A stretch of DNA of 64,000 nucleotides from Burkholderiales bacterium (lineage in GTDB: Bacteria; Pseudomonadota; Gammaproteobacteria; Burkholderiales; Burkholderiaceae_C), in assembly GCA_021414305.1 (NCBI GenBank), contig JAIOOS010000010.1:1-64000 (forward strand), read 5' to 3'. A model generated the notes under the pieces. That model saw only the letters and a list, made by a program, of their open reading frames with translations, had not been told where the DNA came from and did not search any database. Below are positions 40,579 to 61,428 of the stretch, in pieces. Within the stretch, counting starts at the first letter, position 1, and each line of letters opens with the position of its first letter. Made by a program: the position numbers and the translations under genes.

Positions 40579-40650
40579 CTCGCCGTAGTTCAATGGATAG
40601 AACGGCCGCCTCCTAAGCGGCAAATACAGGTTCGATTCCTGTCGGCGGGA
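40579..40650 (+). tRNA. tRNA-Arg (anticodon CCT)
   Basis: A full cloverleaf can be folded. The acceptor stem is CTCGCCG with CGGCGGG (one T-G pair), the D arm GTTC/GAAC, the anticodon stem GCCGC/GCGGC with loop CTCCTAA (anticodon CCT), and the T arm ACAGG/CCTGT with TTCGATT. The discriminator base is A at 40650, and no CCA is encoded. The mobile element begins directly downstream, as usual for P4-type integrases, which use the tRNA 3' end as attachment site. Confidence 0.95.
40631..40650 (+). other. Putative left attachment site (attL) in tRNA 3' end
   Basis: The integrase gene starts 185 bases from the 3' end of the tRNA, and gene content and composition change right after the tRNA. The recombination core is therefore expected in the T-arm/acceptor 3' half. 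The matching copy (attR) is not inside this window, so the core cannot be delimited; the coordinates are an estimate. Confidence 0.4.
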
Positions 40651-40698
40651 CTCTGGAAATTCATCCAGAGACATCCGAAAAGCTCTTTGAACGTCCCA

Positions 40699-40834: not shown

Positions 40835-42253
40835 ATGCCGCTGACGGATGCAAAAGTGCGCAACCTGAAGCCGACCGAGAGGCCGCAACGCTTCTTCGAT
40901 GGCGACGGCCTTTACCTCGAGGTAAGGCCAAACGGCGCGAAGTGGTGGCGGTTCAAGTACCGCTTCGACGGCAAGGAAAAGCTCCTCTCCTTCGGAACGT
41001 ATCCCGAGGTTCCGTTGGCGTTGGCTCGCGCCCGACGGCTCGAGGCGCGACAACAGGTGGCCGCCGGAATCAACCCCAGCGCCGTGCGCAAGGAAGCCAA
41101 GGAGGCAAAGCAGCGAGCCCTCGCGAACACGCTGGAAAAGGTGGCGCGCGCCTGGCTGGCGCGCCGTGCTTCGGCATGGACTGAAGGCACACGGGACGCG
41201 ATCGAGGCCTCGCTCGAGAACCACGTGTTCCCGGCGCTCGGCAACCGCTCGATCCACGAGATCAGCACTCGCGACATCAGAACGGTCGTCCAGGCGATCG
41301 ACGAGCAAGGTTCTGGAGAAACGGCGGGGCGGGTCTTCCAGCGACTGCGCTCGGTCTTTCGCTATGCGCTCTCCGAGGAGCTGGCAGACTCAGACCCCAC
41401 GTTGCCGCTCAAGCCATCGGAGATCTTCAAGCCGCGAGTCACGAGCCATCGACCGTCGCTTGCCGAGGTGGACATGCCGGCGTTCTTCCGAAAGCTGGAT
41501 GCCTACGAAGGCGATCCGTGCATCAAAGCCGCGTTCGAGCTGCTCCTCCTAACCGCAGTGCGCCCCGGCGAGCTACGGGGTGCTCGCTGGAGCGAAATGG
41601 ACGAGTCCCAATCACTCTGGCGAATCCCAGCTGAGCGCATGAAGATGGCAACGGAGCATCTTGTGCCGCTGTCGAACCAGGCGCTGGCCGTGTTGCAGCG
41701 GATGAAGGCGGTGAGCGGTGGCCAGGGGTTGATGTTCCCCTCCACGTTCTACCCTGGCAAGCCGCTGAGCGACGGCACGCTGAACAGCGTTCTGGCACGC
41801 TTTGGCTACAAGGGGATGGCCACTGCGCACGGGTTTCGGACACTGTTCTCCACGTGCGCCAACGAGGCCGGCTGGGACTCGGATGTCATCGAGAAGCAGT
41901 TGTCGCACGAAGAGCGAGACGACGTTCGCGGCGCGTACAACCGCGCGCAATGGCTGCCCGAACGGATTGAGTTAATGCAGTGGTGGGCCGATCGATTGGA
42001 TTCGCTGCGTACCGGGCCGGGAACCCGCGTTGCATCGAAAAGGGTTGCCGCACGCAATTCAGTTGCGCGCCTCGGGAGCTTCGTCCGGGACGAGTCACGA
42101 GCGAGCGGACGGATCAATTCCGAAAGCCGCCAGCTGAATCCTCCTTCGATGCCGGCACCCGTGGCGAAGAACGCCCTTCCCAATCCAATTGAGGTACTTC
42201 GCGCGTTAGTAGCTGCGTTCGATCAGCACTCACCGCGAGTCTCGAAGACTTAA
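40835..42253 (+). CDS. Tyrosine integrase, P4 type (DUF4102 arm-binding domain)
   Basis: This site-specific recombinase of 472 residues inserts the element into tRNA-Arg. The N-terminal DUF4102-type domain starts MPLTDAKVRNLKPTERPQRFFDGDGLYLEV. A SAM-like core-binding domain follows, then the catalytic domain with Arg in AVRPGELRGARW, His and Arg in HGFRTLFST, His in LSHEERDDVRG and the nucleophile Tyr368 in GAYNRAQW. It has about 100 extra residues after the nucleophile, more than the usual few dozen, of low complexity and unknown role. The lower GC third-position use compared with zone 2 marks the start of the element. Confidence 0.93.
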   Translation: MPLTDAKVRNLKPTERPQRFFDGDGLYLEVRPNGAKWWRFKYRFDGKEKLLSFGTYPEVPLALARARRLEARQQVAAGINPSAVRKEAKEAKQRALANTLEKVARAWLARRASAWTEGTRDAIEASLENHVFPALGNRSIHEISTRDIRTVVQAIDEQGSGETAGRVFQRLRSVFRYALSEELADSDPTLPLKPSEIFKPRVTSHRPSLAEVDMPAFFRKLDAYEGDPCIKAAFELLLLTAVRPGELRGARWSEMDESQSLWRIPAERMKMATEHLVPLSNQALAVLQRMKAVSGGQGLMFPSTFYPGKPLSDGTLNSVLARFGYKGMATAHGFRTLFSTCANEAGWDSDVIEKQLSHEERDDVRGAYNRAQWLPERIELMQWWADRLDSLRTGPGTRVASKRVAARNSVARLGSFVRDESRASGRINSESRQLNPPSMPAPVAKNALPNPIEVLRALVAAFDQHSPRVSKT

Positions 42254-42287: not shown

Positions 42288-43577
42288 TCATTTGCGCACA
42301 AAGGCACTTGAACCCGGCCATCGACCGACGCGTAGAACCAGCGAATCGTCGTGAACATCAAGGCAAAGCACAGTCACGACCGGAACGCGACCATTTGCCA
42401 TCGGCAGCCGAAACTCGGCACCAGCCACTTGTGCCAGCTCACTCCGCCACGGGTAGATGAGCGCCAGTTCACTGCATTGAAAGGCTGACGCGTAGGCGTG
42501 CATCTGGTACATGTCGGCCTCACTCGGCATCAGCCGATGCTTGCTGTCGCAACCCACGAGCTTCCACTTGGTGTCCGCGATCGCAACGACAGCATCGGAG
42601 CGACGAAACACGAGGTCCGGGCGCAGTTGGAATCCCAGCTCCACTCGATCCTGACTTACCACCGTCACCAAGGCTTGAGAGGTATCCTGCGCCTCCACTT
42701 CCAGCCCTGATTCTTCATAAACTCGCCGGCGCGCGACCGTGGCAACCGCCGACTCGAACAGCCGGTTCATGTTGAACAGCAGCGCCGGCGCCTCGGTACG
42801 TCCGGCGCGTAGTGCGGGTGCCAGCAGAGCCAGGATCCAGCGCGCCCAGTCGATGGCCACGCGATAGCGTTCGGCCTGGCGGTTGAATGCCAGCCGCTCC
42901 ACGTCGGCGCCGCTCAACCGGGCGTCATCCACGTCGTGCATCACCCCCATCAACGCGACCCATTTCCGGTTGAGCTCCACGCTGCGAATCCAGGGGCGCG
43001 TACAGCGGATCGCCTTCTTGAGGACTCGATTCCACATGTTGTCAACGGTCAACTCGTCGAACGCACAGGCCACCAAGTCGGGACGGTTCGCATGAATCCC
43101 GAGCTGGCGAGTGACGTCGATCCGCCCGCGCACGACGGTCAGGTCGTCTTCGTGCTCCAGGTATTGCTTCAGTAGACCCCCACGCGTGAGCACACTCACG
43201 GCATCGAAGAACGCGGCGATGAAGGCCTCAAGCAATGGCGCCCTGCGCAGGTGTTGGCCGACGGCCTGATGCTGGAACTGCGGAAATCGCTCGGTCAGTC
43301 GAAGCAGACGCAGCAGCACGCCACGGCAGTCGTCGGCCGACGACGCGGCATCTTGAGTTTTCGGCAATATCTCGAGGACGCGCTCGCCCAAGCCGACCAC
43401 ACCACAGAACTGCGCCAGCTTCACCTGGCGGTGCCCGACCTCGCAGAAGCCTGGCCGTTGCTCGCCGATCTGCGCCAGCCGCTCGGCTTCTGCCGGCGTC
43501 AGGCTCCAGCCACTGCCATCGGCGGTGACCGGTATGGGCCGGTGTTCCAGCGCCGTGAGGAAACGAGTCGAAGCCAC
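42288..43577 (-). CDS. mcrC: McrC, endonuclease subunit of McrBC-type modification-dependent restriction
   Basis: This is the nuclease subunit of a type IV restriction system, 429 residues. The PD-(D/E)xK site is LRPDLVFRRSDAVVAIADTKWK (Asp in RPD, Asp-x-Lys in DTK). Other family stretches are LPKTQDA and ARWILALL. McrC cuts DNA carrying modified cytosines when driven by McrB. The start is GTG at 43577, 17 bases behind mcrB; no good ribosome site is seen, so translation probably depends on coupling to mcrB. It is the last gene of the seven-gene block. Confidence 0.87.
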   Translation of the reverse strand: MASTRFLTALEHRPIPVTADGSGWSLTPAEAERLAQIGEQRPGFCEVGHRQVKLAQFCGVVGLGERVLEILPKTQDAASSADDCRGVLLRLLRLTERFPQFQHQAVGQHLRRAPLLEAFIAAFFDAVSVLTRGGLLKQYLEHEDDLTVVRGRIDVTRQLGIHANRPDLVACAFDELTVDNMWNRVLKKAIRCTRPWIRSVELNRKWVALMGVMHDVDDARLSGADVERLAFNRQAERYRVAIDWARWILALLAPALRAGRTEAPALLFNMNRLFESAVATVARRRVYEESGLEVEAQDTSQALVTVVSQDRVELGFQLRPDLVFRRSDAVVAIADTKWKLVGCDSKHRLMPSEADMYQMHAYASAFQCSELALIYPWRSELAQVAGAEFRLPMANGRVPVVTVLCLDVHDDSLVLRVGRWPGSSAFVRK

Positions 43578-43594
43578 GCTACGCGGCCCGGGAA

Positions 43595-45850
43595 TCAGCC
43601 GGTCACGCCCAGGTCGCCAGCGCTGTCGTAGATCCCCCGAAAGCTCTCGGACGTCCAGCTACCGGCCGGCGCGATGACAAAGCGAGAACGGTCACTCGGC
43701 ACGCCGTCCAGTCGCTGGCCGACAAAGAGTCGCCCAAAGTGCAGGGATTCCTCCTGCAGGAACGGCTGCTCGGCTGTGGTGGACAACACCAGCGCCACAC
43801 GCGAAAAGTCGTCGAAGAAGTACTCCTGCAGCAGCGGGATGATCTGTCGGGCAAAGGCTGCCTGGACGTCAGTAAGGGTTCTCGCCCGCATCAGGTACGC
43901 GTGGCCGATGCGATGGTCGCGATCCAGCAGGTACTCCAACCGGTCATTGATCCGCCGCAGCAACCGGCCGAGGTCGAGCCCGTCGACGTTGGCAGGCAGC
44001 GTCGTGTAGTCGGGCGCGCGCTCCTCGAACTGGAAGCGTCTCCGCAAGGCCACGTCCAGCAGAGCGATTGAACGATCTGCCGTGTTCATCGTGCCGTAAA
44101 TGTCCAGGTTCTTCGGCACCCCGAACGGCCGCTCGGCCACGTCTCCATCGCCGCCGCCCGGAAGCTGCACGGCCATGCCTTCGACCACGCGCCCGTGTGC
44201 ATCGAACACCGCCCGCTTGTCGGGCTCAATCAGCGTGATCAGTTCACCGAACACCTTCGCGATGTTGGCGCGGTTGATCTCGTCGATGAAGAGGGCGTAG
44301 CGCTTGCCCGGGTTCGCATGGGCTTCGTCGCAGATCTGCTTGAACTTGCCGTCCACCAACTGGAACTGTGTCGTCCCGTCCTCCGCCGAGGCCACGGGCC
44401 TGATGCCGCGCACGAAATCTTCGTAGCTGAACGACGGGTGGAACGTGACGACCTTGTAGCGGTGCACCGCTTCGGTAGCCGCCTTCGGGCCCGCCTTCAG
44501 CAGACGCCACAGCTCGGCCGATTCATCGTCCTGCTCTTGCCAGCCAGACAGCAACTGCCAGTCGCCGGCTTCGCGCTTATCAAACAGGAATGGCGGTCGA
44601 CGCACGCTGATATTTACCGTGCTGCTGGTCTGGGGCGTGTGCTCTTGCAGGTAGCCCCACAGCGTGGCCTGAACCCCGGCCGGCGCTCGACCTCGTTGCT
44701 GCGCCTTGGCCTGCACCCAGCGATGCGCGCGGATCTCAGGCACACGCGCCGGACGGCCCAGGTCGGCCAAAGCAGCTGCGATGACGCCGCGCCAGCCATA
44801 GTTAGTCAGTGTTTCATTCAGCCACGTGGCCTCGTCGACCTGGCCGGGTGTGTCTGTGTATTCGACAAACTTCTGCCGCAGCCAGTGCGTCTTGCCAGTG
44901 CCGGGAGGGCCGTAGAGGATGAGGTTGACAGGAGTGCCTGCGGCATCAGTTGGCGCTGGCGATGCGGGCTCAGCCACGTATGCTGGTTTGCTGGCGGAAA
45001 GGGGGACATTCAAAGTCGGTGTCTCCGCCGACTCCCCTTGACCAACGTCTGGCTTGCGCCAGCGGGGGCCTAGCGTGTCGTCGTAGAAGTCCAGCACTGC
45101 GCCCGGGCGCTGGGCCTCCTCGCGCTGGCGAAGCGTCAGCAAGGCATCGTCAAGTTGCCGGTCGCTCCAACGCTTCAACTGAGCCCGCGGCGCGACCTGG
45201 AAGCCTTCGAGTATTGAGATGCGGTCACGATTGGAAGACATGCGCTCCACTCGATCCGGGAACGCAAAGTAGCGAAGCATGTGGCGAAACTGGCGGTCGC
45301 CGTCGCGAGGCACCGTATCGATCCAGTCCATGAAGCGGTCGTAGTCACTCAGCACTGCGCGCCGGGCGTCCACGGCCATCGCCTTGATCGAGCGCACCAG
45401 GGCGATCAGGTAAGCCAGTTCCTTCCATCGCAGGTTGTTGTACGCCGTGCCCGCCGAACCTACGCCGTACAGAACGGCGTCGGTAAGCATGGCGTGAGTC
45501 GGCTGCAGTGACTCACCCGACCATGACCAGACGCGCAAGACATGCGCTCGCTTCACGTCGGCGCCAATATTGGACGGGAACAGCAGTAGCGCCCACATCA
45601 TCTCGGACATCAGCTGCTGCGCCGGGGCGCCTGTGTCTAAGAGCTGCCGCTCGAGCTTGGTCATGAAGTCATCGCCGCCGCTGTCGGGGCGTTCAACGAA
45701 GCCCGACTGCAGCCTGTCCGCGTTCGCCGTCGTCCAGAGGCCACGGCTGTCCGCAAGCAGGGACGCATCCTCGACCAGACAGCGGTCGATCCACACGCGT
45801 GCAGCTGCAATGATTGGAGACAGGTCGCGGTCGGTGACTTTGATTGACAT
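43595..45850 (-). CDS. mcrB: McrB, AAA+ GTPase of McrBC-type restriction
   Basis: This is the GTP-driven motor of the McrBC complex, 751 residues. Walker A is GPPGTGKT at 314-321, Walker B is FIDEINRAN, and the McrB-type signature MNTADRS is followed by LDVALRRRF. The N-terminal 290 residues are a separate region without the DUF3578 pattern known from E. coli McrB; this is where target recognition is encoded in the family, so the target may differ. The gene starts 36 bases after the HNH nuclease stop and is followed by mcrC at 17 bases. Confidence 0.87.
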
Positions 45851-45886
45851 GACAGATTCTGCTTGCGCTGGCTCGCGGTGTCCCGG

Positions 45887-46951
45887 CTACTGCGGCTGCG
45901 GCGCGCCGGTGAGGTCTGTGAGGATTGGAAAGAGCCTCTGACAGCCCACAGCGCACCTACGAAGAAGAAACCGAAATACCGCAGCCTTTAAGAAGGCCCG
46001 GTCTCCCAAACCACATCCGGCCAGGTACTGTTCATAGCGCTGCACCGCGACCACAACATCCCCATCTCCCGCGAACTGAAGCGCGGACGTCAAACAGTAG
46101 TTCCGAAACTCGCCGAGCCATTGCCTGAAGGTCTGCTCATCCAACACATCGCGCCTCCAGCGTTCCCGGATGTGGAAGATTTCATCCCAGGTGTCGACGG
46201 CTTCGCCCGCAGGCACGAATTCAATGACCCAATCCGAGACGACGGGACCTGCTGTCAACTCGTCGACAAGACTGTTGTCGACTGAGATCGTCAGGCCCGC
46301 TGTGTCATAGGGGTCGAATGCCAGCCGTCGCTCCCCGGTGGCCCGGCGCAACGGATCCTGAGTCTTTTTGTAGGCCGAATTGCATCGACCGCCCATTGGC
46401 GCCAAGTTGCGCAGGTTTGCTGCAGCGAACGGGTACTTGGAGCGCGGGATGTAGTGGTCGAGGTCCTCCTGCGGGGCTCCGGGGGCATCAAGGCCCTCGC
46501 ATCCGCAGAACGGACAGACCCGTACCGGGATGAGCGCGCACAGCGCTCTGTACTGGTGCTGGCGAATCTCGAATGGAGTGAGTAGGTCAAACCCGAAGGT
46601 AAATAGTGCCTTGGCCGGCTCACGGACAGCCAGCGGAAGGTCGACCAGCTCCGCGCAATCAGACTGGCGAGCCAGCAGTTCTCGAATCTTGTTCTGAGCG
46701 TCGAGCGCCTCAAGGACCGAGCTGCGATGCGCCTGGCTCAGGGCTCTGATGGCCTCTGCGTAAGCAGCGAAGCGATCGCGCAGGCCTGTTCGGCTGGACA
46801 ACTGCTTGCGATGGGCCTCAGGAATGATGGTGGGCCACCTAGGGAGTGGCTTGCCCTCATCCACAAGAGCGTGCACGGTCTTCACAGCCGTGACCATGCA
46901 CTCATGTAGCCAGTTCTCTCCAGCAGCTGAAACGGGATACGAGAACAGCAT
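45887..46951 (-). CDS. HNH endonuclease of a Septu-like (PtuB/TIGR02646-type) ATPase-nuclease pair
   Basis: This predicted HNH nuclease has 354 residues. The core is CPFCG (from Cys146), then LDHYIPRSKYP (His166) and RNLAPMGGRCNSAYK, which together form the beta-beta-alpha-metal fold. I selected the ATG at 46951, one base after the ATPase stop; a TTG at 46996 would extend it into the ATPase gene. Adjacent ATPase plus HNH protein is the layout of Septu (PtuA-PtuB) and of related pairs found with retrons and type I restriction systems. In those systems nuclease activity is released during phage infection. Equivalence here is by layout and motifs only. Confidence 0.82.
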   Translation of the reverse strand: MLFSYPVSAAGENWLHECMVTAVKTVHALVDEGKPLPRWPTIIPEAHRKQLSSRTGLRDRFAAYAEAIRALSQAHRSSVLEALDAQNKIRELLARQSDCAELVDLPLAVREPAKALFTFGFDLLTPFEIRQHQYRALCALIPVRVCPFCGCEGLDAPGAPQEDLDHYIPRSKYPFAAANLRNLAPMGGRCNSAYKKTQDPLRRATGERRLAFDPYDTAGLTISVDNSLVDELTAGPVVSDWVIEFVPAGEAVDTWDEIFHIRERWRRDVLDEQTFRQWLGEFRNYCLTSALQFAGDGDVVVAVQRYEQYLAGCGLGDRAFLKAAVFRFLLRRCAVGCQRLFPILTDLTGAPQPQ

Positions 46952-46952
46952 G

Positions 46953-48587
46953 CTATTGCTTGGATTGCCGTTGGAGTTGGCGGACTCGATCGGCAAGCAT
47001 GATCTTCTCTACTGAGTCGCCCAACTCAAGCATCCCCTCCTGGATCTTCTGGGGATCGTCGGACGTCTTCAGCGTCTCGATCTTCGTCATCGAGACCTCA
47101 GAGATTGGGGGGCGTATCTCGAAACACTCGGCCAAGATGGCGTCGAAGGTGGTCCCGAAGGTTTCAAGATCAGGGTGCCGCACGTCGATCCTTCCTGACT
47201 CGGCGTTCTTGCTGAAGATGAAGACCCGCTCCTTCGGCATGTCGGAGGGCACAAACGGGGAGTGAGTTGTCAGGATGCCATCTTGCATCGCGGCCCGGCC
47301 TTGCTCATCTCGCCGGCCGCCAGCAGTGGGAAGGGCGAGTACGTTCGTCAACAGCTTCACCCGCCACTGCGGATTGAAGTGAGACTCGGGCTCGTCCAGG
47401 AGAAAGAGCGCGTTCGGGAATGAGACCATGCACATGGTCCCCAGAAGCTGCGCCATCTGATGCTCGCCATCTGAAAGCGATACGTAGTCGACGGTTCCGT
47501 GTACGCCTGAGGCATTGAACACGACTCGCTCGAATCGAAAGACCTTGTCCTCGTCCTGTGGCTCGGGTAGTCGAGAAGCGAACTTCCGCTGCTGTGTTTC
47601 GCGTCGAAACCGCTCCCGCGTGGTCTTCGGTATGGCTAGGTCATTCAGCATCGCGAGTTTGTGGAGCGCCGCATAGAGCTCCAAAGAACTGGACCAGAAG
47701 CTTGCGAATGCCTTTCGCGTCTCGCCGTTAATCAGGAAGTCGAACGCGTAGCTGTCGGTGCCGGGCTCATGGTGGTAGCTCGTGGCGCACCGCTGAAGCT
47801 GGTTCAGGTACGACTCGAGTTCGGCGGTGAGCTGGATTCCCTTGCGTCTTCGTGTGCCAGGTCGTCCCGATGGCGCCTTGGGTGCCGCCGAGTGCGCCAG
47901 CTGAATGATGCATCGAAACGAATGCAAATCCTGAACACGGGCGTCTTCAAGTAGAGCAACCCGCTGCTCAGCCGATCCAAGCAGAAGATTTGCTACCAAC
48001 ACTTCAAGGTGGGTGCCATAGTCGATCAGCATCAAGCGGGTATCGGGTACGGCGCCTTGTCCCTTGGACTCGTCCAACGCGCGGCGGCCGACCTCATCTG
48101 CATACCCGCCGCGCGACACCAGGAACGGTAGGCTCAAGGTCTCGTTCGCCCCAGATGTGTAGCCGATCACCTTTGTAGGTAGTAGCGTCACCGTCTGCGG
48201 ATCGTTGAGGTCGCACTCGACCCACTCTTCAGCGATCTTCTTGGCAAGCTTGACTACTGGGCGGCGGCGGCCTTCAGCAAGCCGGGTTGCCTTGACATGA
48301 ACCGGGGCCTCTTGACCGTGCACGGGAATTGCGTACTCAATCACAAACTGCAAGTCAGGATTGCCTTCCGCGCGCTCCTCGCTTGGCACCGCTGCATGCA
48401 AGAGCAATTGGAAGGCTTCGGCGACGACCTGGATGAACTGTGACTTTCCGGCTCCGTTCGGGCCAATCAGGCAAAGCGGTTCAAACATCGAACCACTGAT
48501 CACCGAATCGCGAAGGCGAACATCGAGGCCGTCAAGCAGACCACCGCAGGATTGTGCGGTGACGACGTGAACGCGCAGGAGCTTCAC
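46953..48587 (-). CDS. Restriction-associated AAA (ABC-like) ATPase, PtuA-like
   Basis: This SMC/RecF-type ATPase of 544 residues has Walker A GPNGAGKS (42-49), a signature-like stretch VSLSDGEHQMAQLL and Walker B ALFLLDEPESHFNPQW; the H-loop is in TTHSPFVPS. It resembles the family annotated as restriction-system-associated AAA ATPases (TIGR04435), which come with an HNH partner. It overlaps hsdS by four bases and is followed after one base by the HNH gene, so it is coupled to both. A role as sensor and gate for the HNH nuclease is the likely reading. Confidence 0.82.
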   Translation of the reverse strand: MKLLRVHVVTAQSCGGLLDGLDVRLRDSVISGSMFEPLCLIGPNGAGKSQFIQVVAEAFQLLLHAAVPSEERAEGNPDLQFVIEYAIPVHGQEAPVHVKATRLAEGRRRPVVKLAKKIAEEWVECDLNDPQTVTLLPTKVIGYTSGANETLSLPFLVSRGGYADEVGRRALDESKGQGAVPDTRLMLIDYGTHLEVLVANLLLGSAEQRVALLEDARVQDLHSFRCIIQLAHSAAPKAPSGRPGTRRRKGIQLTAELESYLNQLQRCATSYHHEPGTDSYAFDFLINGETRKAFASFWSSSLELYAALHKLAMLNDLAIPKTTRERFRRETQQRKFASRLPEPQDEDKVFRFERVVFNASGVHGTVDYVSLSDGEHQMAQLLGTMCMVSFPNALFLLDEPESHFNPQWRVKLLTNVLALPTAGGRRDEQGRAAMQDGILTTHSPFVPSDMPKERVFIFSKNAESGRIDVRHPDLETFGTTFDAILAECFEIRPPISEVSMTKIETLKTSDDPQKIQEGMLELGDSVEKIMLADRVRQLQRQSKQ

Positions 48588-50218
48588 TTGCGGGCCCGCC
48601 TGAGCTTCATCGATCTAACTTTCACATCGAAGAACTGCTCAACGCCGGAGCTTTTGTCCGAGAGTAGTTCAAAGAGGTCACCCTTCAGCGATTCGTAGTC
48701 ACCGCCTACTACTTGTCGGAGCTCATCGAACGAGAAGTCCGCCTTGGGCATCCGATCGATGACTTCTAGCAGCTTTGGCTTTGGCGATGGCTTCAAGTCC
48801 GGACTCCTAGTTGATGGCGGCCCCGCGCGTGAGGGCGAGGGCGCTTGCTTTGCAGCGGCAACGCGTGCGAGCAACGTTCTGGCAGGCTCGTCGCTCGGGT
48901 CCTGCGGTACCAGCTCTCCACGGAAGCCCTTGGCCAGTAGCGCGGGAGTAAGGCGATCAACTTGGGCACGGGCAGTTACGAGGCGGGCCTCGATACTGAT
49001 AGCGACAGAGAGGAGTGAGTCGACCTGGCGAATCACTTCAGCTTGCTCCTCAAGCGACGGAAGCGGAATGGGCACTCGTCGAACATCGGCCAAGTTGAGC
49101 CCTGGCATATCGATGCCTCGGTAATGGCCGTGAAGCCATCGCTGAGTCTCGGGCGCTTCGAGCACCGTCGCTAAGTAGCGGGTGAGAATCTTTTGCGACG
49201 GGCGGAAGCGCGCAGTGCCCTGGGTGATGTTTGCGCCGTTCAGAGACTCAGGCACGACCGCGACCTTCGTCGCGCGAATGATCCCGAGCAATACGTCGCC
49301 GCCCTTTATCGACGCTCGGGCATAGCGCTGAGCAATCTCCGGGCTTGTACGCAAGAGTTGTTCAACACGGATCTCACCATTGACGATGTCCATGCCACGA
49401 ACATAGGGCACGCCTGCAGCCAACTTGGGTCCCGGCTGCACGATGCCATACACGATATCCGCGCCAGTCTCAACGACTAGCGAGGCTCGTTCGACCCGCC
49501 AGCCATCCGGAAGGTCGTCCATCCATTCTTGAAGCTGTCGGTCACTAGGCTTTTCGTCGACTGCCAGGCTGGAAAGGTCAGGACCGAGTCGCGGAGGACG
49601 GGCGCTATGGTTTGCTTCGGTCGCCTCCCTCCACGCCTGCGACAACTGTCCTCTGACCGCGGCGGAGAGTACTGCCTCCCTGAAGCGCTTGAGGATGGCA
49701 AATACGCGGTACAACCGGTCGCGGCAGGCGTCCACGCGGGCGAGAATGGCATCGAGTTTGTCGGCGATGCGCTTCTGCTCGGCAGCCGGGCATAGGGGGA
49801 CTTGAAGCTGCCGGATTAAGTCACCACTAATCGCGGCGAACGTCGTACCTGTGCCTTGCTTAGCCAGCCAATCCTGAATGCTTCGAAGGTAGTGAAGCAG
49901 ATATGTCTGATTGAGAGGCTGCGCGACTCTAAGTGCGGCCAGTCCGCGGCCGATGCAGCAGTCCGTCGCTGCAACGTTCGTCGGACCAACAGGCGCGCGA
50001 ACGGAGAGAAGAATGTCACCAACCCTTGCGACCTTAATCGGTTCGGAACACCACTTACGCACGGTCGGGTAGAGCGAACCAAATTCGGCCTTCCCCTGAA
50101 AGAACGGTAACCCAACTCCAAGGTCGTTGTACGTGGCCGAGTTGGGTGATTGCCCCATCTGGACCTCGGCGATCTCGCCAAGGAGCGCGTCGGTCCACGA
50201 TTCAGGAAGTCCCTTCAC
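48584..50218 (-). CDS. hsdS: Type I restriction-modification specificity subunit HsdS
   Basis: This protein of 544 residues has two target recognition domains. The first covers about residues 1-150 and the second about 215-380; each is followed by a helical conserved region (AEQKRIADKLDAILARVD and EEQAEVIRQVDSLLSVA). After the second spacer a Pro/Ser-rich linker (about 440-470) leads to an additional C-terminal domain (about 475-544) with SFDELRQVVGGDYESLK, which is beyond the typical HsdS length of 400-450. It overlaps both neighbours by four bases. The recognised DNA sequence cannot be predicted from the protein. Confidence 0.88.
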   Translation of the reverse strand: MKGLPESWTDALLGEIAEVQMGQSPNSATYNDLGVGLPFFQGKAEFGSLYPTVRKWCSEPIKVARVGDILLSVRAPVGPTNVAATDCCIGRGLAALRVAQPLNQTYLLHYLRSIQDWLAKQGTGTTFAAISGDLIRQLQVPLCPAAEQKRIADKLDAILARVDACRDRLYRVFAILKRFREAVLSAAVRGQLSQAWREATEANHSARPPRLGPDLSSLAVDEKPSDRQLQEWMDDLPDGWRVERASLVVETGADIVYGIVQPGPKLAAGVPYVRGMDIVNGEIRVEQLLRTSPEIAQRYARASIKGGDVLLGIIRATKVAVVPESLNGANITQGTARFRPSQKILTRYLATVLEAPETQRWLHGHYRGIDMPGLNLADVRRVPIPLPSLEEQAEVIRQVDSLLSVAISIEARLVTARAQVDRLTPALLAKGFRGELVPQDPSDEPARTLLARVAAAKQAPSPSRAGPPSTRSPDLKPSPKPKLLEVIDRMPKADFSFDELRQVVGGDYESLKGDLFELLSDKSSGVEQFFDVKVRSMKLRRARK

Positions 50219-51681
50219 GGTTCGACCTCGTCAGGTTCCTCTCCTAGCTCCGCGAAGACGCCGCGCAACTCCTCGAATGCGCCCTTGAGCTCTGCCATTG
50301 CTTCTCTGGCCAGCACTGCCGGCTCGAGCACATCGTCGGTACTACCGTCGCTTTCGTCCTTCAGCCAAGCGATATCAAGGTTGTCGCCACGCTTGGCAAT
50401 CCATTCGCGCGTGAATTTGCGGAATCGTCCCTCTTCACCCGTGTCCTTCCGATTCGCGAGGCTCTTTGAGTGGCCTAGCGAATCGTCGCCGAACGCCGAC
50501 TCAAACTCTTTGAAGTGGTCGCGCGCAAGCTGCGTACGCTTGCCGAACTGGGCCATGTTTGCGCGCAGGTCATATACCCACACCTCCTTGGTGTTGCCCT
50601 TTTCCTTATCGCCGCGGGTGAAAAACAGTACGTTGGTCTTCACACCCTGCGCATAGAAGATGCCGGTGGGTAGGCGCAGGATGGTGTGCAGGTTGCACTT
50701 GTCCATCAGGTCGCGCCGAATCTCGGTGCCCGTATTGCTCTCGAAGAGCACGTTGTCCGGCAGCACAACCGCGGCGCGGCCGCCTGGCTTCAGTGCCCGG
50801 TAGATGTGCTGTAGAAAGCAGAACTGCTTGTTGCTGGTCGGGAAGGTGAAGTCGTCGCGCGTCGGCAGGCCGCCGCCCTTCTTGGTGCCGAACGGCGGGT
50901 TAGTGAGGATCAACGTCGCACCGACCTTGCCAAGTGCCTCGCCATCCGGACCCAACGTGTCGCCGTAGCGGATGCCGCCCGCCTCGGGGTCGCTGTCGAT
51001 GCCGTGCAGCATCAGGTTCATCAGGGCTAGACGGTGCGTGTCCTGCACATGCTCCATACCGAAGAAGGTGTTGCGGCGCAGCTTGCGCTGCTGCTTCTCC
51101 GTCAGCGAATCGAAGTCGTGGTGCTCTCGCAGCCAATGGTGTGCGGCGATCAGGAAGCCGCCGGTACCGGCGGCCGGGTCCTGGATCACATCGTTAAGCG
51201 TCGGCTTCATCACCGCCACCATGCTGTCGATCAGCGGCCGGGGCGTGAAGTACTGGCCCGCGCCGCTCTTCTTCTCGTTGGCGTTCTTCTCCAGCAGGCC
51301 CTCGTACAGGTCACCCAGGCCCTCCTGCCGCGCGCTGTACCAGTCGAGCTTGTCGATCTCAGTGACCAGCGTCGAGAGCGTGGCCGGCTTCTTGATAAAG
51401 CTGCTGGCGTTGGCGAAGATCTCCTTCACCAACATCGAGCCGTGGCTGCCGAGGTGGACGAGGGTTTTCTTGTAGAACTCCAGCCGCTCCGGCGCGCTTT
51501 GCGCGGTCAGTTCGGCCCACCGGTAGCCTGCAGGCAGTTGGTCGTGCTGCCCTGTCTCCTCGGCCATCTTCAGGAACAGTAGGTAGGTTAGTTCGGTGAC
51601 GTATTGGTGGTAGGTGACGCCATCGTCCTTGAGGACGTTGCACAGGTTCCAGAGCTTGCCGACGATGTCTTGGGTGGTCAT
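50215..51681 (-). CDS. hsdM: Type I restriction-modification DNA methyltransferase HsdM
   Basis: This is an N6-adenine methyltransferase of 488 residues. The SAM-binding motif is DPAAGTGGF and the catalytic motif is NPPFG. The N-terminal helical bundle begins MTTQDIVGKLWNLCNVLKDDGVTYHQYV, typical of HsdM. With HsdS it methylates the recognition site and protects host DNA. It overlaps hsdS by four bases and follows hsdR by 33 bases. Confidence 0.92.
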   Translation of the reverse strand: MTTQDIVGKLWNLCNVLKDDGVTYHQYVTELTYLLFLKMAEETGQHDQLPAGYRWAELTAQSAPERLEFYKKTLVHLGSHGSMLVKEIFANASSFIKKPATLSTLVTEIDKLDWYSARQEGLGDLYEGLLEKNANEKKSGAGQYFTPRPLIDSMVAVMKPTLNDVIQDPAAGTGGFLIAAHHWLREHHDFDSLTEKQQRKLRRNTFFGMEHVQDTHRLALMNLMLHGIDSDPEAGGIRYGDTLGPDGEALGKVGATLILTNPPFGTKKGGGLPTRDDFTFPTSNKQFCFLQHIYRALKPGGRAAVVLPDNVLFESNTGTEIRRDLMDKCNLHTILRLPTGIFYAQGVKTNVLFFTRGDKEKGNTKEVWVYDLRANMAQFGKRTQLARDHFKEFESAFGDDSLGHSKSLANRKDTGEEGRFRKFTREWIAKRGDNLDIAWLKDESDGSTDDVLEPAVLAREAMAELKGAFEELRGVFAELGEEPDEVEP

Positions 51682-51714
51682 AGGTAAGGTTCGTGTTGGA
51701 GCGCGGTCGTGCCG

Positions 51715-54700
51715 TCAAGCGGCAGGCTTCGTCCAGATCGAGTCGTTGAAGGCGTCCAGCGTTTGCAGCAACTGGCCACCGAAGAGTTTGTCCAGCCGCG
51801 GAAATCCGCCGCCTTGGGTCTTGAACAGCAGATCCGGGTCGTCGAGAGCGTCGCGGTCGACCAGGGTGTTGGCCTTGGTCTGTGCAGCAATCTTCTTCAA
51901 CCAGTCTCGCTGCGGCGTGGTCCAGGCCTTGCCGGCGGGCGGATGCGCCAGCAGGTGGTTGAGTGCACGGTCCACGCGTTCAGCGTACGGTACCAGGGCA
52001 TCGCCGATAGCGGCCTGACGGATGTAGCCGATGATTCGCGCAGCGATGTCCTGGTTGGTCATTTCGCGCCAGGCCGTCGCCAGGCCCGTCTCGGTGAAGC
52101 CGGCCTTGTCCAGCTCCATCACCAGTTCGCGCAGTTGCTTGCGGGTGAGCTCGCGTGGCCGAGTCAGCACCGTCACCAAGGCTGGGATGGTATTGCTATG
52201 GCTCTGGATGAACGCGGTGAATTCGTGGAGGTAGTCCTCCGGCTTCTTGGCCCTACCGTAGCCACGGGTCACGTCCTTGAGTTGGTCGTCGTGGTCTGAC
52301 ACGAACACCGGGTCGCGCGGCCCGCTGCCCTTGCGGTCTAGGATCTCGCCGAGGTCCGGGTTCTGGGTGAACCAAGCGGCCACTTCGGTGAGCGGCATCC
52401 CGCGCAGCTTCTGGATAAAGGCGTCTGGCGGCATGCCGGCGCGGGCTTCGAAGTCCTTGGCTGCGTCGTGCCCCAGGTGGCGCTTCTTGCGCTGAAGTTT
52501 GGCCAGGAACTGGTCGCGGGCCAGCGCACGGGCATTTTCGTCGGAGACGGTGGCCAGCTCCTTGGTGAGTTGGGCGAAGCTGATGCCAGGGTTGACGACC
52601 ACTGGCTGCATGGCCGTCATGCCCTGCAGCGCTTCGAAGATCTGCACGGCATCGAAGACGCGGAACGCTTCCTTGTCGCCGTCGCCATCGATGTTCGGGC
52701 ACAGGCGGGTGGCGCGACCGAGCATCTGGTCGAACAGGATGCGGCTGTTCACCCGCCGCAGAAAAACCAAGTTGCAGATCTCGGCCACATCGATGCCCGT
52801 CGTCAGAAGATCCACCGTCACTGCAACATTGGGCAGCTTCTCGTTCTTGTAGCGACGGATCAGGGACAGCGGTTTGTCTGCGGCGCCGGTAATCTTGATG
52901 ACGGAATCGTCTTCGACCGCGCCGTAGGCTTTGGTGAACGCCGCCTTCATCAGGTGCACGACCAGATCGGCATGGGCGTCGTTGACGCAGAAGATGAGCG
53001 TCTTTCGTCGGCTGGCCGGGTCCAGCTCGCCGGCCAGGTATTCGCATACGACACGGTTGAAGCTCTCGGTGATGACCTTGCGGTTGAAGGCGTCCACTTC
53101 CAGCGTGATCTCATCCGGCGCCCTGAACAACTCGATCTGGTTGAGCTGAACGTCGTAGACCTTGAGCTCTTCGCCGGCCTTCCATTGGATGCCGCTGGCG
53201 GACAGATCCGTCGTGATCTGAATCGGGGGTTCGTAGTCGACGAGAAAGCCATCGATGACGGCCTCGCGGTAGCTGTAGGTGTAGACCGGCGCGCCGAAGA
53301 TCTGCGAGGTGTGCAACGCCGGCGTGGCGGTGAGACCGATCTTGACGGCGTCGAAGTAGTCGAGCACGCGACGGTACTTAGAGATGTAGTCCTCGTAGCC
53401 GCGGAAGGTAAGTTCGGTGTCCGACAGCTCACGGTCGAGCAGGTAGCCGCGGTGACACTCGTCCACCACGATGCAGTCGTATTGGTCCACGCTCGGCGGG
53501 CCGGCGTCGTCCGACGGGTAGAGCACGCGCGCCACCATGCCCTGGATGGTCGCGATGTGCACAGATGTGTCGCTGTCCGGCGAGATGTCTTCCAGTTCCT
53601 TGATGCCGAAGGTGTCGGCAAAGGTCTGGAGATTTTCCATCCGCGTGTCCTTGAACGCGTTGGTGGCCTGTTCGCCGAGGGCAGAGCGGTCAACGAGAAA
53701 CAGGATGCGGCGGAAGCGCTCCGCTTTTAGCAGGCGATAGATGAGTGCGATGCAGGTCTTGGTCTTCCCCGTGCCCGTGGCCATGGCCAGCAGCAGTTCG
53801 CGTTGACCTTTCTGGATGGCCAACTCAGCGGCTTTGATGGCGGCCTGCTGGTAGTGGCGCAGGGCGAAGCCGTAGTTGAAGGGTTCGTTCGCCAGCTTCT
53901 CGTGCGCCTTGGCTTCGTCGCGCTTAAGCAGTGCGACCAACCCTTCGGGCGTGTACCAACCATCCAGCGGCTGGCTCAGGTTATCTGTGCGCCGAAGATC
54001 GCAAAACCAGACGCCGCTCTTGGTGGCGAGTTGCCGGAGGAAGGGGCGGCCGTTGGAAGAGAACGCGAACGGAATCTTGATCGCGTTAGCTCCCTGGCCC
54101 ATGACGGACGGCATTTCGAGGTTATCGATGGCGCCGAAGTCACGGCTGTAGCGCTTGGCTTGCTGCAGGGAGCCCGAGACATCGACGTTCTTTCGCTTGG
54201 CCTCCACCACCGCGACTGGAGTGAGGCCGACAAAAAGAACGTAATCGGCCGGGCCGCTCTGTGTGGGCCACTCGGCGATGGCAAGGTTCTTGCCCCTATG
54301 CGGGCGAGCGCCCCTTGCGAACGTCAGTGATGCCGTGTCGGCTATCCAGCCGGCGGCGATGAGCTGCTCGTCGATCAGCTTGCGCGTATCGGCCTCACTG
54401 AGCTGCAGCGTGGCAGCTGCCGTGTTGGCAGCAGCGACCAGTTTTGTGACTATCTGGGCCGGTTGCGTGAGAGCCTGCGTCTGCAGGGCCTGAACGCGGG
54501 CGACAAGCTCCGCCTTCGCTGCCTCAGCCTCTGAAGCCATGGACTCCCAGAAGGCGCGCTCTTCCTCGGTCTCCTGGGCTTTTGCTTGGGTGGCCCGTAG
54601 CGCCTGGGCGGCGTCCTGGTGAGCTGTCCTGAAGGCAGCCATTTCGGCGCGCAGCGAATCGAGTTCGGCCTTGAGCTCAACGCCCTGGTCGGCGGGCGCA

Positions 54701-55119
54701 GTTGGCGGCAGGAAGGGGCCTGAATTGAATTCCGGTTCCTTGAATGTGCGGTGAAACCAGACGCTCAACTGCCAAGCCAGTCGCAGGGCCAACAGGGCGA
54801 TACGGTGATCCCCGGTCAGCTTGTGGTTGGCGTCGTTGCCGGCCTTGCGCACCTCGTGGAACAGCGCACTCACCTCCCGAGGCAGGATGCCGTGATCCTG
54901 GAGACGGCGAAGCAGGTCGGTCTGCTTCTCTTCGGCGCCGGCGTAAATGCCGACGCGGGATGCCGTCAGCTGCGCCAAGGCCTCGGTCAGCTGCCGCAGC
55001 TTGAGCAGGCAAGTGTTCGGATCTTCCGGAAAGTAGCGCTCCGCGAGCAGACCAAGGCGCACGAGCTGTTCGTCGTGCGCTTTCAAGTGCGCGAAGTTGC
55101 TGGCGCTTGCCGAGTTCAT
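51715..55119 (-). CDS. hsdR: Type I restriction endonuclease subunit HsdR (EcoEI-like, DUF4145 N-terminus)
   Basis: This translocase and nuclease has 1134 residues. An N-terminal DUF4145-like helical domain (about 1-150) and a coiled-coil region (about 155-220) precede the PD-(D/E)xK nuclease with VAVVEAKRKN. The helicase core has MATGTGKTKT, the box VVDECHRG and GLTATP, and then motifs VDLLTTGIDV and GRATRLCP. The C-terminal part contacts HsdM. I used the ATG at 55119 because GGGGGA precedes it closely; an alternative start 15 codons upstream exists. It is the first gene of the run that ends with mcrC. Confidence 0.9.
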   Translation of the reverse strand: MNSASASNFAHLKAHDEQLVRLGLLAERYFPEDPNTCLLKLRQLTEALAQLTASRVGIYAGAEEKQTDLLRRLQDHGILPREVSALFHEVRKAGNDANHKLTGDHRIALLALRLAWQLSVWFHRTFKEPEFNSGPFLPPTAPADQGVELKAELDSLRAEMAAFRTAHQDAAQALRATQAKAQETEEERAFWESMASEAEAAKAELVARVQALQTQALTQPAQIVTKLVAAANTAAATLQLSEADTRKLIDEQLIAAGWIADTASLTFARGARPHRGKNLAIAEWPTQSGPADYVLFVGLTPVAVVEAKRKNVDVSGSLQQAKRYSRDFGAIDNLEMPSVMGQGANAIKIPFAFSSNGRPFLRQLATKSGVWFCDLRRTDNLSQPLDGWYTPEGLVALLKRDEAKAHEKLANEPFNYGFALRHYQQAAIKAAELAIQKGQRELLLAMATGTGKTKTCIALIYRLLKAERFRRILFLVDRSALGEQATNAFKDTRMENLQTFADTFGIKELEDISPDSDTSVHIATIQGMVARVLYPSDDAGPPSVDQYDCIVVDECHRGYLLDRELSDTELTFRGYEDYISKYRRVLDYFDAVKIGLTATPALHTSQIFGAPVYTYSYREAVIDGFLVDYEPPIQITTDLSASGIQWKAGEELKVYDVQLNQIELFRAPDEITLEVDAFNRKVITESFNRVVCEYLAGELDPASRRKTLIFCVNDAHADLVVHLMKAAFTKAYGAVEDDSVIKITGAADKPLSLIRRYKNEKLPNVAVTVDLLTTGIDVAEICNLVFLRRVNSRILFDQMLGRATRLCPNIDGDGDKEAFRVFDAVQIFEALQGMTAMQPVVVNPGISFAQLTKELATVSDENARALARDQFLAKLQRKKRHLGHDAAKDFEARAGMPPDAFIQKLRGMPLTEVAAWFTQNPDLGEILDRKGSGPRDPVFVSDHDDQLKDVTRGYGRAKKPEDYLHEFTAFIQSHSNTIPALVTVLTRPRELTRKQLRELVMELDKAGFTETGLATAWREMTNQDIAARIIGYIRQAAIGDALVPYAERVDRALNHLLAHPPAGKAWTTPQRDWLKKIAAQTKANTLVDRDALDDPDLLFKTQGGGFPRLDKLFGGQLLQTLDAFNDSIWTKPAA

Positions 55120-56840: not shown

Positions 56841-57671
56841 TCAGGCGTGCGATGCCTTCGATCCGACCAGGCGCAGCAGCCCAATGAGAAGAATGGCAAC
56901 AGCTTGATCGATGTGAACAGTGCGAGCAAGCTCAGCGTTCTCCTCGGCATCGAGCCCATTGCACAACGAGGTGTGATCCCAGCCCTCGAAGTACTGCAAG
57001 CCGGGCCAGCCGTCCGCTCGATCCTGTGACCCTTGGATGAGGCCAATTTCCTCGGCAATGTCCCGAGCGCAACCACCGAAACCGCCCAGCACGAACAGAG
57101 GCTTGGCCGTGTTCAGTGACCAAAGCGCTTCCTCAGCAACTCCGGGCATGATTCCCTTGAAGCCTTGCGTCTGTCCGCCCAGAATCACGCGGAAGTCGCT
57201 CGCTTCAGTGAGGACGCATCGCTGCGCACTCATGCTCGCGGCCCATTCAGCGGCAGAGACTCGCTCGCGAGGCTTCGCGCGCAAGTCCTTAAGGCTCATG
57301 GGTACGCCGCGCCTGTCCAGGCAGATGATCCGAGCAAAGTCGCGAACGTCGTGCGCAAGCGCCTGCATGTCCTTAGCTGACCTTGTGACGTGGACAGGCC
57401 ACGGTACATAGTTCGTCACTGCTACCCGAACGTCGTTGACGTCTGCATCTCGCCTATGCCGTGTGACCAGCTCAAACAGCAGTTCGCTGAATCCATCCTT
57501 TCGAAAGTCACCGCCGTAGTTCAACCGTGCACCGAAAGCGAGCAGATGCCTGGACACTTCCGCCATCGCGTCTCGTAGGTGTTCGTGAGCGAGACCGAGC
57601 AACTCCATGTCGTCGCTGTCCGAAATCGAGATGGCGACGGCCTTGTCGCTTAGGGGCTCGCGGTAGTTCAT
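56841..57671 (-). CDS. SLOG-domain protein (LSDAT/TRPM-like nucleotide sensor)
   Basis: This soluble protein of 276 residues matches the SLOG superfamily, a Rossmann-like fold that binds nucleotide derivatives. Visible features are AISISDSDDMELLGLAHEHL, GARLNYGGDFRKDGF (about 47-61) and the C-terminal GGQTQGFKG, PGVAEEAL and FVLGGFGGCARDIAE (about 160-208). In Thoeris, the ThsA SLOG domain senses a cyclic ADP-ribose made by a TIR protein. Here SLOG is a separate protein whose start overlaps the double-TIR gene by four bases (ATGA). It has no effector domain such as SIR2 or a membrane helix, which leaves the output unexplained. Confidence 0.75.
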   Translation of the reverse strand: MNYREPLSDKAVAISISDSDDMELLGLAHEHLRDAMAEVSRHLLAFGARLNYGGDFRKDGFSELLFELVTRHRRDADVNDVRVAVTNYVPWPVHVTRSAKDMQALAHDVRDFARIICLDRRGVPMSLKDLRAKPRERVSAAEWAASMSAQRCVLTEASDFRVILGGQTQGFKGIMPGVAEEALWSLNTAKPLFVLGGFGGCARDIAEEIGLIQGSQDRADGWPGLQYFEGWDHTSLCNGLDAEENAELARTVHIDQAVAILLIGLLRLVGSKASHA

Positions 57672-58852
57672 CGCGTGACTGCTACGCTAGCAAGCCACTC
57701 CGTGAGGCTGCGTAGTAGGAACCTGGGGGCGATCTGCTCGAATAGGCGTTGCTCTTCCGCGCCTAGAGGAGGGTCGGGATAGACCAAGGTCTGTTTTCCT
57801 TTGCGACCACTGAGATTTGCAAGTGCGATGAGCTCAGGGGGACGCGGCAAGAATTCCACGCCTCTAGCTTTTGGCCCGGACGCAAGCTCGACACGGCAAC
57901 GCCACAGGAAATCCTTCAAGACCTCAACGAGTAGCCTAGCAACCACCTGATCAACGCGATCCACCTTGACAGGATCCATCCGCACAACCGGAACATTGCC
58001 CAGGTACGGAAAGCTCCTCTCGTCCGTATCCGTTAGACAGTTGGCGACGACCAGTGGGACGCTCCATCTCTTGGCTTCGATAATCTCGCGCCGGCACCAC
58101 TCGCGGGATGAAAAACTGTCGGTGTGGATTGCGACCACAGCACTCAGCTTCACCTCTTGCATCAGCGCTTGATCGAAGCGGACACCGGAGGGTATGTCTT
58201 TCACGTCGAAGAATGACGCCAGTCCATTCCCGTTGAAAAGCTGAGATCGGATCTCCTTTGCGATACGCTCGCCGTCGGAATCATGCTTGGAATGGCTCAG
58301 AAATATCTGCACCTTCTTAAGGTATTGCTGCAATCCGTTGTCAGCCACTTTGGGACGCCGAAGCCGCTCAAGATAGGTGCGCAGCATGCGGCAGAACTGA
58401 TAGGTGAGATCGCTTGTGAGGAGCAAGAGTCTTGCTTCCGGACTTGACCCGATCCACTTGTCCCACCGTACGGCTTGCTCTGTGAAGCCGACATCGTAGA
58501 AGGACTTGTCTACGGCAACGGGAAAGACTCGACTGCCGAGACCTGCCTCCTCGACCTGAGCCCCGACCTCTCTTGCCCAAGAAACATACCCCGCATTGGC
58601 GCAAAACTTTTCATCCAGCAGCAAGACGATCGCTGTCGTCTCGCCCTCCTCGAGATCGATCCGTGGTGGCGCATCGGCGCCTACGTCAGAAGCACTGCGA
58701 TAGATGACGCTCAGCCCGGCGCCACCGGCCACGTTCTGAAAAAGCTCTCGCCGATACTGATCGTAGAGGTGCTTCGCAATCGCGCGGCCCTCAGTAAAGT
58801 CTGGGTGCCAAGCGACATACAGAATGAGAAGTGGTCGAGTCGAGGTGGGCAT
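57668..58852 (-). CDS. Double TIR-domain protein
   Basis: This protein of 394 residues has two TIR-like halves. The C-terminal TIR (about 180-310) is clear: VQIFLSHSKHDSDGERIAK, FFDVKDIPSG, and the catalytic-type motif SREWCRREI with Glu256. The N-terminal half (about 7-130) follows the same pattern (LLILYVAWHPDFTEG, then IVLLLDEKFCANAGYVSWAREV) but lacks the WCxxE motif and looks like a divergent or inactive copy. TIR domains in bacterial defence split NAD+ or make NAD-derived signals. It is located between the glycosylase-like gene (9 bases) and the SLOG gene (overlap), so signal production for SLOG is plausible. Confidence 0.8.
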   Translation of the reverse strand: MPTSTRPLLILYVAWHPDFTEGRAIAKHLYDQYRRELFQNVAGGAGLSVIYRSASDVGADAPPRIDLEEGETTAIVLLLDEKFCANAGYVSWAREVGAQVEEAGLGSRVFPVAVDKSFYDVGFTEQAVRWDKWIGSSPEARLLLLTSDLTYQFCRMLRTYLERLRRPKVADNGLQQYLKKVQIFLSHSKHDSDGERIAKEIRSQLFNGNGLASFFDVKDIPSGVRFDQALMQEVKLSAVVAIHTDSFSSREWCRREIIEAKRWSVPLVVANCLTDTDERSFPYLGNVPVVRMDPVKVDRVDQVVARLLVEVLKDFLWRCRVELASGPKARGVEFLPRPPELIALANLSGRKGKQTLVYPDPPLGAEEQRLFEQIAPRFLLRSLTEWLASVAVTR

Positions 58853-58861
58853 GGCGGTGAC

Positions 58862-59539
58862 TCAAACGAAGAGTTTCTGTTGATCAATAGGAGCGCCGAG
58901 CACGCTCGGCTTAAGACCATGCAGCTCCGCAATGCCGCGACGGAAGTCCGCCACGCCGCCGTAGCTCGGATGCCGCACGACTTCGACTTGCAATCCGAAT
59001 CTGACGGCGTACCTCGCGGCGTCTTGACCGATCGAGACAATGCGCCGGGCGCCCAACCAAGCGAAAAGCACCGCGTTCAGTTCATCGACCTCCGCCAATT
59101 CCGCGGACCTAAATCGTCGATTGGTGAGGGGCTGATCACGCTCATGCGGGTGAAGCGGAAATACGTTCCAAAGCAGAGGCTGTCGAGGCAGCCTTCGCAG
59201 CGTCGCCCAGATCTCCGCTGCGGTGCGTTCGGCAAGCGCGACCCCTTTGGTTGCGCGCTCAAACGTTGCGGTCGGAAAGATCTGTTGAAGCTCGAGTAGA
59301 TGGTACTCATCGGTCAATGCCAGGCCGGTCCGGCGCCCGCCGCGGTGACCTAGATCACGACCCATCCAGACGGTATCGACTTCTTGCGCCGCGAGCGCAC
59401 CCAAGTACGAACGAAGATTCTTGCGGCGCGTCGAGGGGGCATCAGCCTTGTCGTAGACGGGGCAGACATCAGCGTATGGATTGAAGACGTCCTGCAAACA
59501 AACGGCGGACAGGCGCCGAACGAACGAATCAGGCGTCAC
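58862..59539 (-). CDS. Uracil-DNA-glycosylase-superfamily protein
   Basis: This protein of 225 residues fits the uracil-DNA glycosylase fold: the motif VWMGRDLGHRGGRRTG with Asp62, then LLWNVFPLHPH and the C-terminal RHPSYGG (His190-Pro-Ser). Activity could be removal of uracil or another altered base, or the fold may serve nucleotide binding only. I chose the GTG at 59539, with AGAAGG five bases upstream, which overlaps the MazG-like stop by 11 bases; a TTG at 59569 is the alternative. Its setting among TIR, SLOG, Nmad2-like and MazG-like genes is unusual for a repair enzyme. Confidence 0.75.
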   Translation of the reverse strand: MTPDSFVRRLSAVCLQDVFNPYADVCPVYDKADAPSTRRKNLRSYLGALAAQEVDTVWMGRDLGHRGGRRTGLALTDEYHLLELQQIFPTATFERATKGVALAERTAAEIWATLRRLPRQPLLWNVFPLHPHERDQPLTNRRFRSAELAEVDELNAVLFAWLGARRIVSIGQDAARYAVRFGLQVEVVRHPSYGGVADFRRGIAELHGLKPSVLGAPIDQQKLFV

Positions 59540-60788: not shown

Positions 60789-60801
60789 GACGTAGCAGCG
60801 G

Positions 60802-61428
60802 TTAGCGCGCCCATGAGGAGCGGGCACGCTCCCATGTGAAAGGACTGGCGAGGTATCCCTGGACGTCGAGGTCCTCAAACCAATTGGTGAAGTCGCGAAT
60901 ATATTCCTGCGGGAAATTCGACCTATAGCCTCGCTGGATGACGAGTGTGCCTCCGTCGTGGTCAAGGAACTTTTGGGGGATATCTATCGCCTCATGCCCC
61001 CAGTACGCGAAGCGTCGCCCTACTAGGACGCCAAGTGACTGCGTGTCGTTGGCAATGTTCCTCGGATTGGGGCAGCCGTTCGCAAAACTGTGGTGTGAAT
61101 CAGATTGCTGCCAGTTGCTCGTGGGACTTGACCGGTGATAGATGTTGTCTCCGAAGAGTTGCTTGATGCTTCCCGTACGAGAGGGTTTCTTGTACTGGTA
61201 GCGACTGTCTGTCCAATATGAGTCATACGTGAGAATCTCGTCGACGCGCATGACATACACCAGTCCAGGAGTTTTGCGGTCGCGCGCACCAGCAAGGCCA
61301 ACGACCCAGTCGCCGACGGCGGCTCTCGCGCGTATTTCGGGCTTGCAAGTGGCGAGTGTGCAGACGCCACCGAACGGATTCGGTGCGAAACCGAAGTCGC
61401 GCGCGACAACGTACGAGAAGAGTCGCAT
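60802..61428 (-). CDS. Nmad2-like protein (nucleotide-modification-associated domain 2)
   Basis: This protein of 208 residues resembles the family described as nucleotide modification associated domain 2, recognised here by RLFSYVVARDFGFAPNPFGG, CTLATCKPEIRARAAVGDWVVG and later GDNIYH and SHHS elements. The family was defined by its neighbours in base-modification gene clusters, and its biochemical role is unknown. The match is from memory of the motif pattern. It starts at the ATG at 61428, six bases after the TIR stop, and is followed by the MazG-like gene at 13 bases. Confidence 0.72.
   Translation of the reverse strand: MRLFSYVVARDFGFAPNPFGGVCTLATCKPEIRARAAVGDWVVGLAGARDRKTPGLVYVMRVDEILTYDSYWTDSRYQYKKPSRTGSIKQLFGDNIYHRSSPTSNWQQSDSHHSFANGCPNPRNIANDTQSLGVLVGRRFAYWGHEAIDIPQKFLDHDGGTLVIQRGYRSNFPQEYIRDFTNWFEDLDVQGYLASPFTWERARSSWAR

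Follow-up and report, generated by a model that had tools for sequence, protein, structure and literature searches.

Gene order, recurrence and possible function of a seven-gene HsdRMS-AAA/HNH-McrBC run on a Burkholderiales genomic island

The locus considered here lies in a 64,000-nucleotide stretch of a Burkholderiales contig (the window), where genes for type I restriction-modification (R-M), an AAA ATPase, an HNH nuclease and McrBC follow one another on one strand. The question raised is whether these seven genes make up a single layered restriction operon or are separate defence genes that came to lie side by side.

Gene content, packing and island setting

The genes were found in the order hsdR-hsdM-hsdS-AAA-HNH-mcrB-mcrC as a single minus-strand run from 55119 to 42288 (Table 1). 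The intergenic gaps from hsdR to mcrC were 33, −4, −4, 1, 36 and 17 bases, so that hsdS overlaps both hsdM and the AAA gene by 4 bases, and the largest gap within the run is 36 bases. The positions and spacings of the initial annotation, which had described a compact co-directional run, were reproduced exactly. A terminator scan gave no terminator-like site between any two genes of the run, while a scan for sigma-70 promoters gave zero matches at all and was uninformative in this GC-rich host. Judged from the spacing, the seven genes are presumably carried on one transcript.

Table 1. Window coordinates of the seven genes and of the neighbouring integrase and tRNA gene
Feature	Position	Strand	Remark
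tRNA-Arg(CCT)	40579..40651	+	ARAGORN
Tyrosine integrase	40835..42253	+	Arm-DNA-bind_3 and Phage_integrase; convergent with mcrC, 34 bases apart
mcrC	42288..43577	-	ORF
mcrB	43595..45850	-	ORF
HNH nuclease	45887..46951	-	ORF
AAA ATPase	46953..48587	-	ORF
hsdS	48584..50218	-	ORF
hsdM	50215..51681	-	ORF
hsdR	51715..55119	-	ATG start; ORF opens at GTG 55164

HsdR matched NCBIfam PRK11448 with 1541 bits (cut-off, 729) and contained a Walker A motif, DECH and a VEAK nuclease motif, corresponding to an SF2 motor and a PD-(D/E)XK nuclease. From this family match and these motifs it was assigned as the type I restriction/translocation subunit. HsdM was assigned as the N6-adenine methyltransferase subunit (PF02384, 254 bits), with DPAAGTGGFL as motif I and NPPF. 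HsdS carried two Methylase_S stretches (PF01420), corresponding to two target-recognition domains, and a C-terminal extension. With HsdR, HsdM and a two-domain HsdS in a single predicted operon, the set belongs to type I R-M by gene content and motifs, and by its motifs it is conventional. Every catalytic motif looked for in the protein sequences of the seven genes was intact.

The AAA protein, encoded directly after hsdS, matched NCBIfam TIGR04435 with 443 bits (cut-off, 300) and PADLOC PtuA1 with 138 bits, and it contained GPNGAGKS, LSDGE, LLDEPE and THSPF. It was also a distant match to retron PtuA structures and was deduced to be a restriction-associated AAA/ABC-type ATPase resembling PtuA. 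The HNH protein contained CPFCG...LDHY...CNS, and its gene is considered real and its product a PtuB-like partner of the ATPase. Its PADLOC matches were all weak (PDC-M01B, 2.9e-10; PtuB, 1.8e-4; also PDC-M62B), its predicted structure was too poor for use (mean pLDDT, 53), and it matched 0 NCBIfam families at E ≤ 0.001. The pair had initially been labelled as of TIGR04435/TIGR02646 type; the first half of this label holds, and the second, since the HNH protein has no TIGR02646 match, is a resemblance only. A PtuA-type ATPase adjoining an HNH protein is what defines Septu/PtuAB, and the two PADLOC matches place the pair there. A retron-type PtuAB was rejected, as NF041760 (retron I-A PtuA) gave 34.7 bits against a cut-off of 500 and the run contains no reverse transcriptase.

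McrB possessed an AAA_5 domain with Walker A/B and the NxxD motif of the McrB GTPase and matched McrB structures at 1e-32 to 1e-44. The match to PRK11331, the E. coli-type family, was below the cut-off at 119 bits. McrC (PF10117, 220 bits) is the PD-(D/E)XK nuclease subunit, with the motif LRPDLVF...ADTKWK. An assignment to MADS was rejected because MAD2 (105 of 720 bits) and MAD5 (38 of 400 bits) were far under their cut-offs.

The last 16 bases of the tRNA-Arg(CCT) gene (TTCCTGTCGGCGGGAC, 40636-40651) recur as a direct repeat at contig positions 71375-71390, beyond the window, and at this right-hand repeat the GC content steps from about 0.60 up to 0.72. Given the integrase beside tRNA-Arg(CCT) and the 16-base repeat, the seven-gene run lies at the integrase end of an island that measures about 31 kb and reaches past the window end, and forms part of the island's cargo. 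The same island holds, on the minus strand, a SLOG cluster-2 protein overlapping a TIR-domain protein by 4 bases (56841-58852), which resembles a nucleotide-signalling defence pair, a protein whose matches are to a MazG C-terminal domain (254 bits) and, weakly, to MazG pyrophosphohydrolase (59529-60965), and a ThsB-type TIR protein (61435-61908). Past the window, Fic-like, NYN/PIN-like and nucleotidyltransferase-like genes, as read from the sequence, extend up to the right-hand repeat (contig 66588-71363).

Recurrence of the gene order and relatives of its parts

Besides the window, 34 TIGR04435 neighbourhoods of about 20 kb each were collected with the TIGR04435 model and an AAA alignment as queries, plasmids and public contigs included. 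They came from Pseudomonadota, Bacteroidota, Bacillota and Cyanobacteriota, with one from a viral-collection contig. The scan of public contigs with the AAA alignment contributed at least two loci, one of them the key Flavobacterium copy. In nearly all 34, hsdM, hsdS, AAA and HNH occurred together, and almost every TIGR04435 locus had HNH directly after AAA; the subfamilies of HsdR and HsdM differed widely from locus to locus. The hsdS-AAA-HNH core is thus a recurrent cassette. In two neighbourhoods hsdM did not precede hsdS but lay downstream of HNH, followed in one of them by a second partial hsdM.

A search of these neighbourhoods with McrB and McrC profiles detected mcrBC in 3 of the 34, about 32 of which are informative (two end <200 bases past HNH, and in one no HNH was detected). 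All three are Flavobacterium: F. xueshanense (L041) and two more genomes, one intact (L127) and one decayed (L126). In each, mcrBC follows HNH immediately and on its strand, with HNH-mcrB gaps of 23, 9 and 84 bases, respectively; none of the 34 carried mcrBC upstream, reversed or at any other position. The initial remark that mcrBC is less usual downstream of such a set is therefore borne out, with the addition that the arrangement recurs and always uses the same slot. The fraction of 3/34 is no unbiased rate because Flavobacterium was sampled after L041 had turned up there. In L126 the full seven-gene set has frame breaks in hsdR, hsdM, AAA, mcrB and mcrC, and loss of the cassette by decay is possible. 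Other occupants of the slot after HNH were GmrSD (L124), a NucS-like nuclease (L051) and PDDEXK_13 (L098). In L124 (11800-15694) there are two GmrSD-type genes, of a modification-dependent family, after hsdRMS-AAA-HNH, at 331 bases from HNH.

From the other side, the window's McrB was searched in 300 genomes of the host's order, and 20 neighbourhoods and six plasmid ones were inspected. A cassette directly upstream of mcrBC was found in one genome of this order (L128/L148), with the complete seven-gene order. A scan of viral contigs with the McrB motor gave no match. The seven-gene order thus occurs in five genomes falling into two groups, the host's order (the window and L128/L148) and Flavobacterium (L041, L127 and L126), so that all copies outside the host's order belong to one genus.

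The nearest relatives of the two halves were particularly informative. L128/L148 has the closest McrB relative (motor, 68% identical; McrC, 56%), with a cassette unrelated to that of the window (HsdM, 27%; AAA, 28% over 190 residues; HNH, 24%). Its McrB has a DUF3578-type N terminus, in contrast to the helical domain of the window's McrB, and the McrB proteins of L127 and L041 likewise have N termini other than the window's. The nearest relative of the cassette is L051 (HsdR, 72%; HsdM, 65%; AAA, 60%; HNH, 47%), which is without mcrBC and has the NucS-like gene in the slot. Since the nearest relative of each half is without the other half, the assembly is deduced to be modular, and the patterns of L128 and L051 indicate that the halves were exchanged independently with the order kept. 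Independent inheritance of mcrBC and hsd, which the initial annotation had named as evidence against its reading, was thus found, and it does not argue against a single operon.

The five coupled copies needed 3 changes in the tree of McrB motors, which rejected a single clade (AU p 0.0003). In the AAA tree they needed 5 changes, or 4 without the longest branches, and a single clade was again rejected. The McrC tree, in which long branches are present, also needed 3 changes, and one clade was not rejected (p 0.118). As such changes may be gains or losses, the trees make repeated assembly of the seven-gene order the likelier reading and do not prove it.

The same order might also arise by plain accretion in a defence island, with the R-M/AAA-HNH cassette and an independent mcrBC as mere neighbours, the 3' end of the operon as a harmless landing place, and no functional link or cooperation. 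This is somewhat unlikely. It would account for the other nuclease genes in the same slot, for the unequal third-position GC of the blocks (hsdR/M, 0.81-0.83; hsdS/AAA/HNH, 0.65-0.70; mcrBC, 0.74-0.79), and for the plasmids of Sinorhizobium, Rhizobium and Ketogulonicigenium on which mcrBC with the window's N-terminal type occurs by itself as a pair of genes. Against it, wherever mcrBC was found close to a TIGR04435 cassette it followed directly on the 3' side in the same direction, never upstream or reversed, and the order is common to five genomes on different backbones. The tight co-directional packing with 4-base overlaps and the intact motifs likewise favor a layered operon; the absence of mcrBC from most TIGR04435 loci counts against one.

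Comparison with known systems

Operons joining hsd to mcrBC have been described before, as have most of the parts. McrBC of the K-12-type branch often accompanies type I R-M, as a rule in one direction and potentially in one operon (Bell et al. 2024, PMC11090510). As in the E. coli K-12 immigration control region (mrr-hsdRMS-mcrBC) and this branch, type I R-M adjoins McrBC in the run (PMC11090510, PMC12707154); for the K-12-type loci, however, no AAA-HNH genes have been described between hsdS and mcrB, and the run's McrB has a different N-terminal domain. With type I R-M operons containing TIGR04435 and HNH genes, the run shares the hsdS-AAA-HNH order, the 4-base hsdS overlap and a score above the cut-off, but most of these end at HNH, whereas the run continues into mcrBC. 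Like Septu and retron I-A PtuAB, it has an adjacent ABC-type ATPase and HNH nuclease; it differs in being far under the retron PtuA cut-off, in being without a reverse transcriptase and in placing the pair inside a type I R-M operon. An effector gene inside such an operon is also found in EcoprrI-PrrC, although PrrC is a single anticodon nuclease and the run has an ATPase/HNH pair. No paper on McrBC, PtuA and type I R-M together, or on TIGR04435/TIGR02646, was found in the literature searched, most subscription journals lying outside the search, and the added AAA-HNH pair was not found described there.

The McrB N-terminal domain and a possible layered function

The GTPase of the window's McrB is preceded by a domain of about residues 1-290. 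The model, built from six sequences, was all-helical and of moderate confidence (mean pLDDT, 66; pTM, 0.59), and structure searches with it gave no significant match. There was no Pfam match in nine members of the domain family, including none to the known modified-base readers DUF3578, EVE and YTH at this N terminus, and no PDB match. The family is present in further McrB-like proteins and heads both the solitary plasmid pairs mentioned above and the McrB-McrC pairs L140, L141 and L150-L152. Because it also heads other McrB-McrC pairs, the domain is likely a reader. From the homology of its motor and nuclease, this McrBC is a putative attacker of modified DNA.

Alternatively, this McrBC may not depend on modification, the helical domain recognising a DNA structure, an unmodified site or a partner protein, in which case anti-unmodified and anti-modified activities would not be paired. 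Action on unmodified sites is known for some McrB relatives, such as LlaJI (PMC12707154), and a helical domain matching nothing in Pfam or the PDB is consistent with this. The model is of only moderate confidence and rests on six sequences, however, and the occurrence of the family ahead of other McrB-McrC pairs points to a reader; we consider this explanation unlikely. Bolder and more doubtful is the proposal that HsdRMS, AAA-HNH and McrBC are a type of three-layer system that arose on several occasions, its McrBC motor retained and its N-terminal reader exchanged; the helical domain would then be a novel kind of McrBC sensor, which may respond to something other than a base. It is improbable that mcrBC instead guards the epigenetic territory of the operon, cutting or killing in response to genome modification by a rival methyltransferase, with phage DNA not the main target: E. 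coli McrBC answers foreign genome methylation by host killing, as summarized in PMC2614495, and this would fit the pairing with a methyltransferase-bearing operon, but the marks of HsdM are predicted to be on adenine.

We therefore return to a mobile, modular, repeatedly assembled layered restriction operon, the reading that we favor as moderately probable. Its first layer would be HsdRMS, marking self DNA with N6-methyladenine and cleaving unmarked DNA. The second would be the AAA/HNH pair, a PtuAB-like effector nuclease presumably coupled translationally to hsdS. For related pairs, retron-Eco7 PtuAB depletes tRNA-Tyr and Septu PtuAB has been reported to be active on nicked DNA (PMC11555353), while a 2026 abstract reports tRNA-Tyr cleavage for Septu (PMC13096335). 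PrrC in EcoprrI is an effector within a type I operon that can be triggered by inhibition of restriction (PMC12707154). By analogy with PrrC, we infer that the trigger of the AAA/HNH pair would come from restriction itself, most likely when it is engaged or defeated, through DNA ends or nicks or through an inhibited HsdRMS. McrBC, joined at the 3' end, would form the third layer and cut DNA that escapes the first; such DNA may carry another modification, by analogy with E. coli McrBC.

The probable repeated assembly of an identical gene order in distant bacteria suggests a layered defence that is selected. If the layers cooperate, the run would be one transferable cassette against unmodified phages, restriction-blocking phages and DNA-modifying phages. 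The same order on unrelated backbones offers a natural experiment on whether selection acts on defence layers as a set, and the helical N-terminal domain of McrB is a candidate new specificity module of McrBC.
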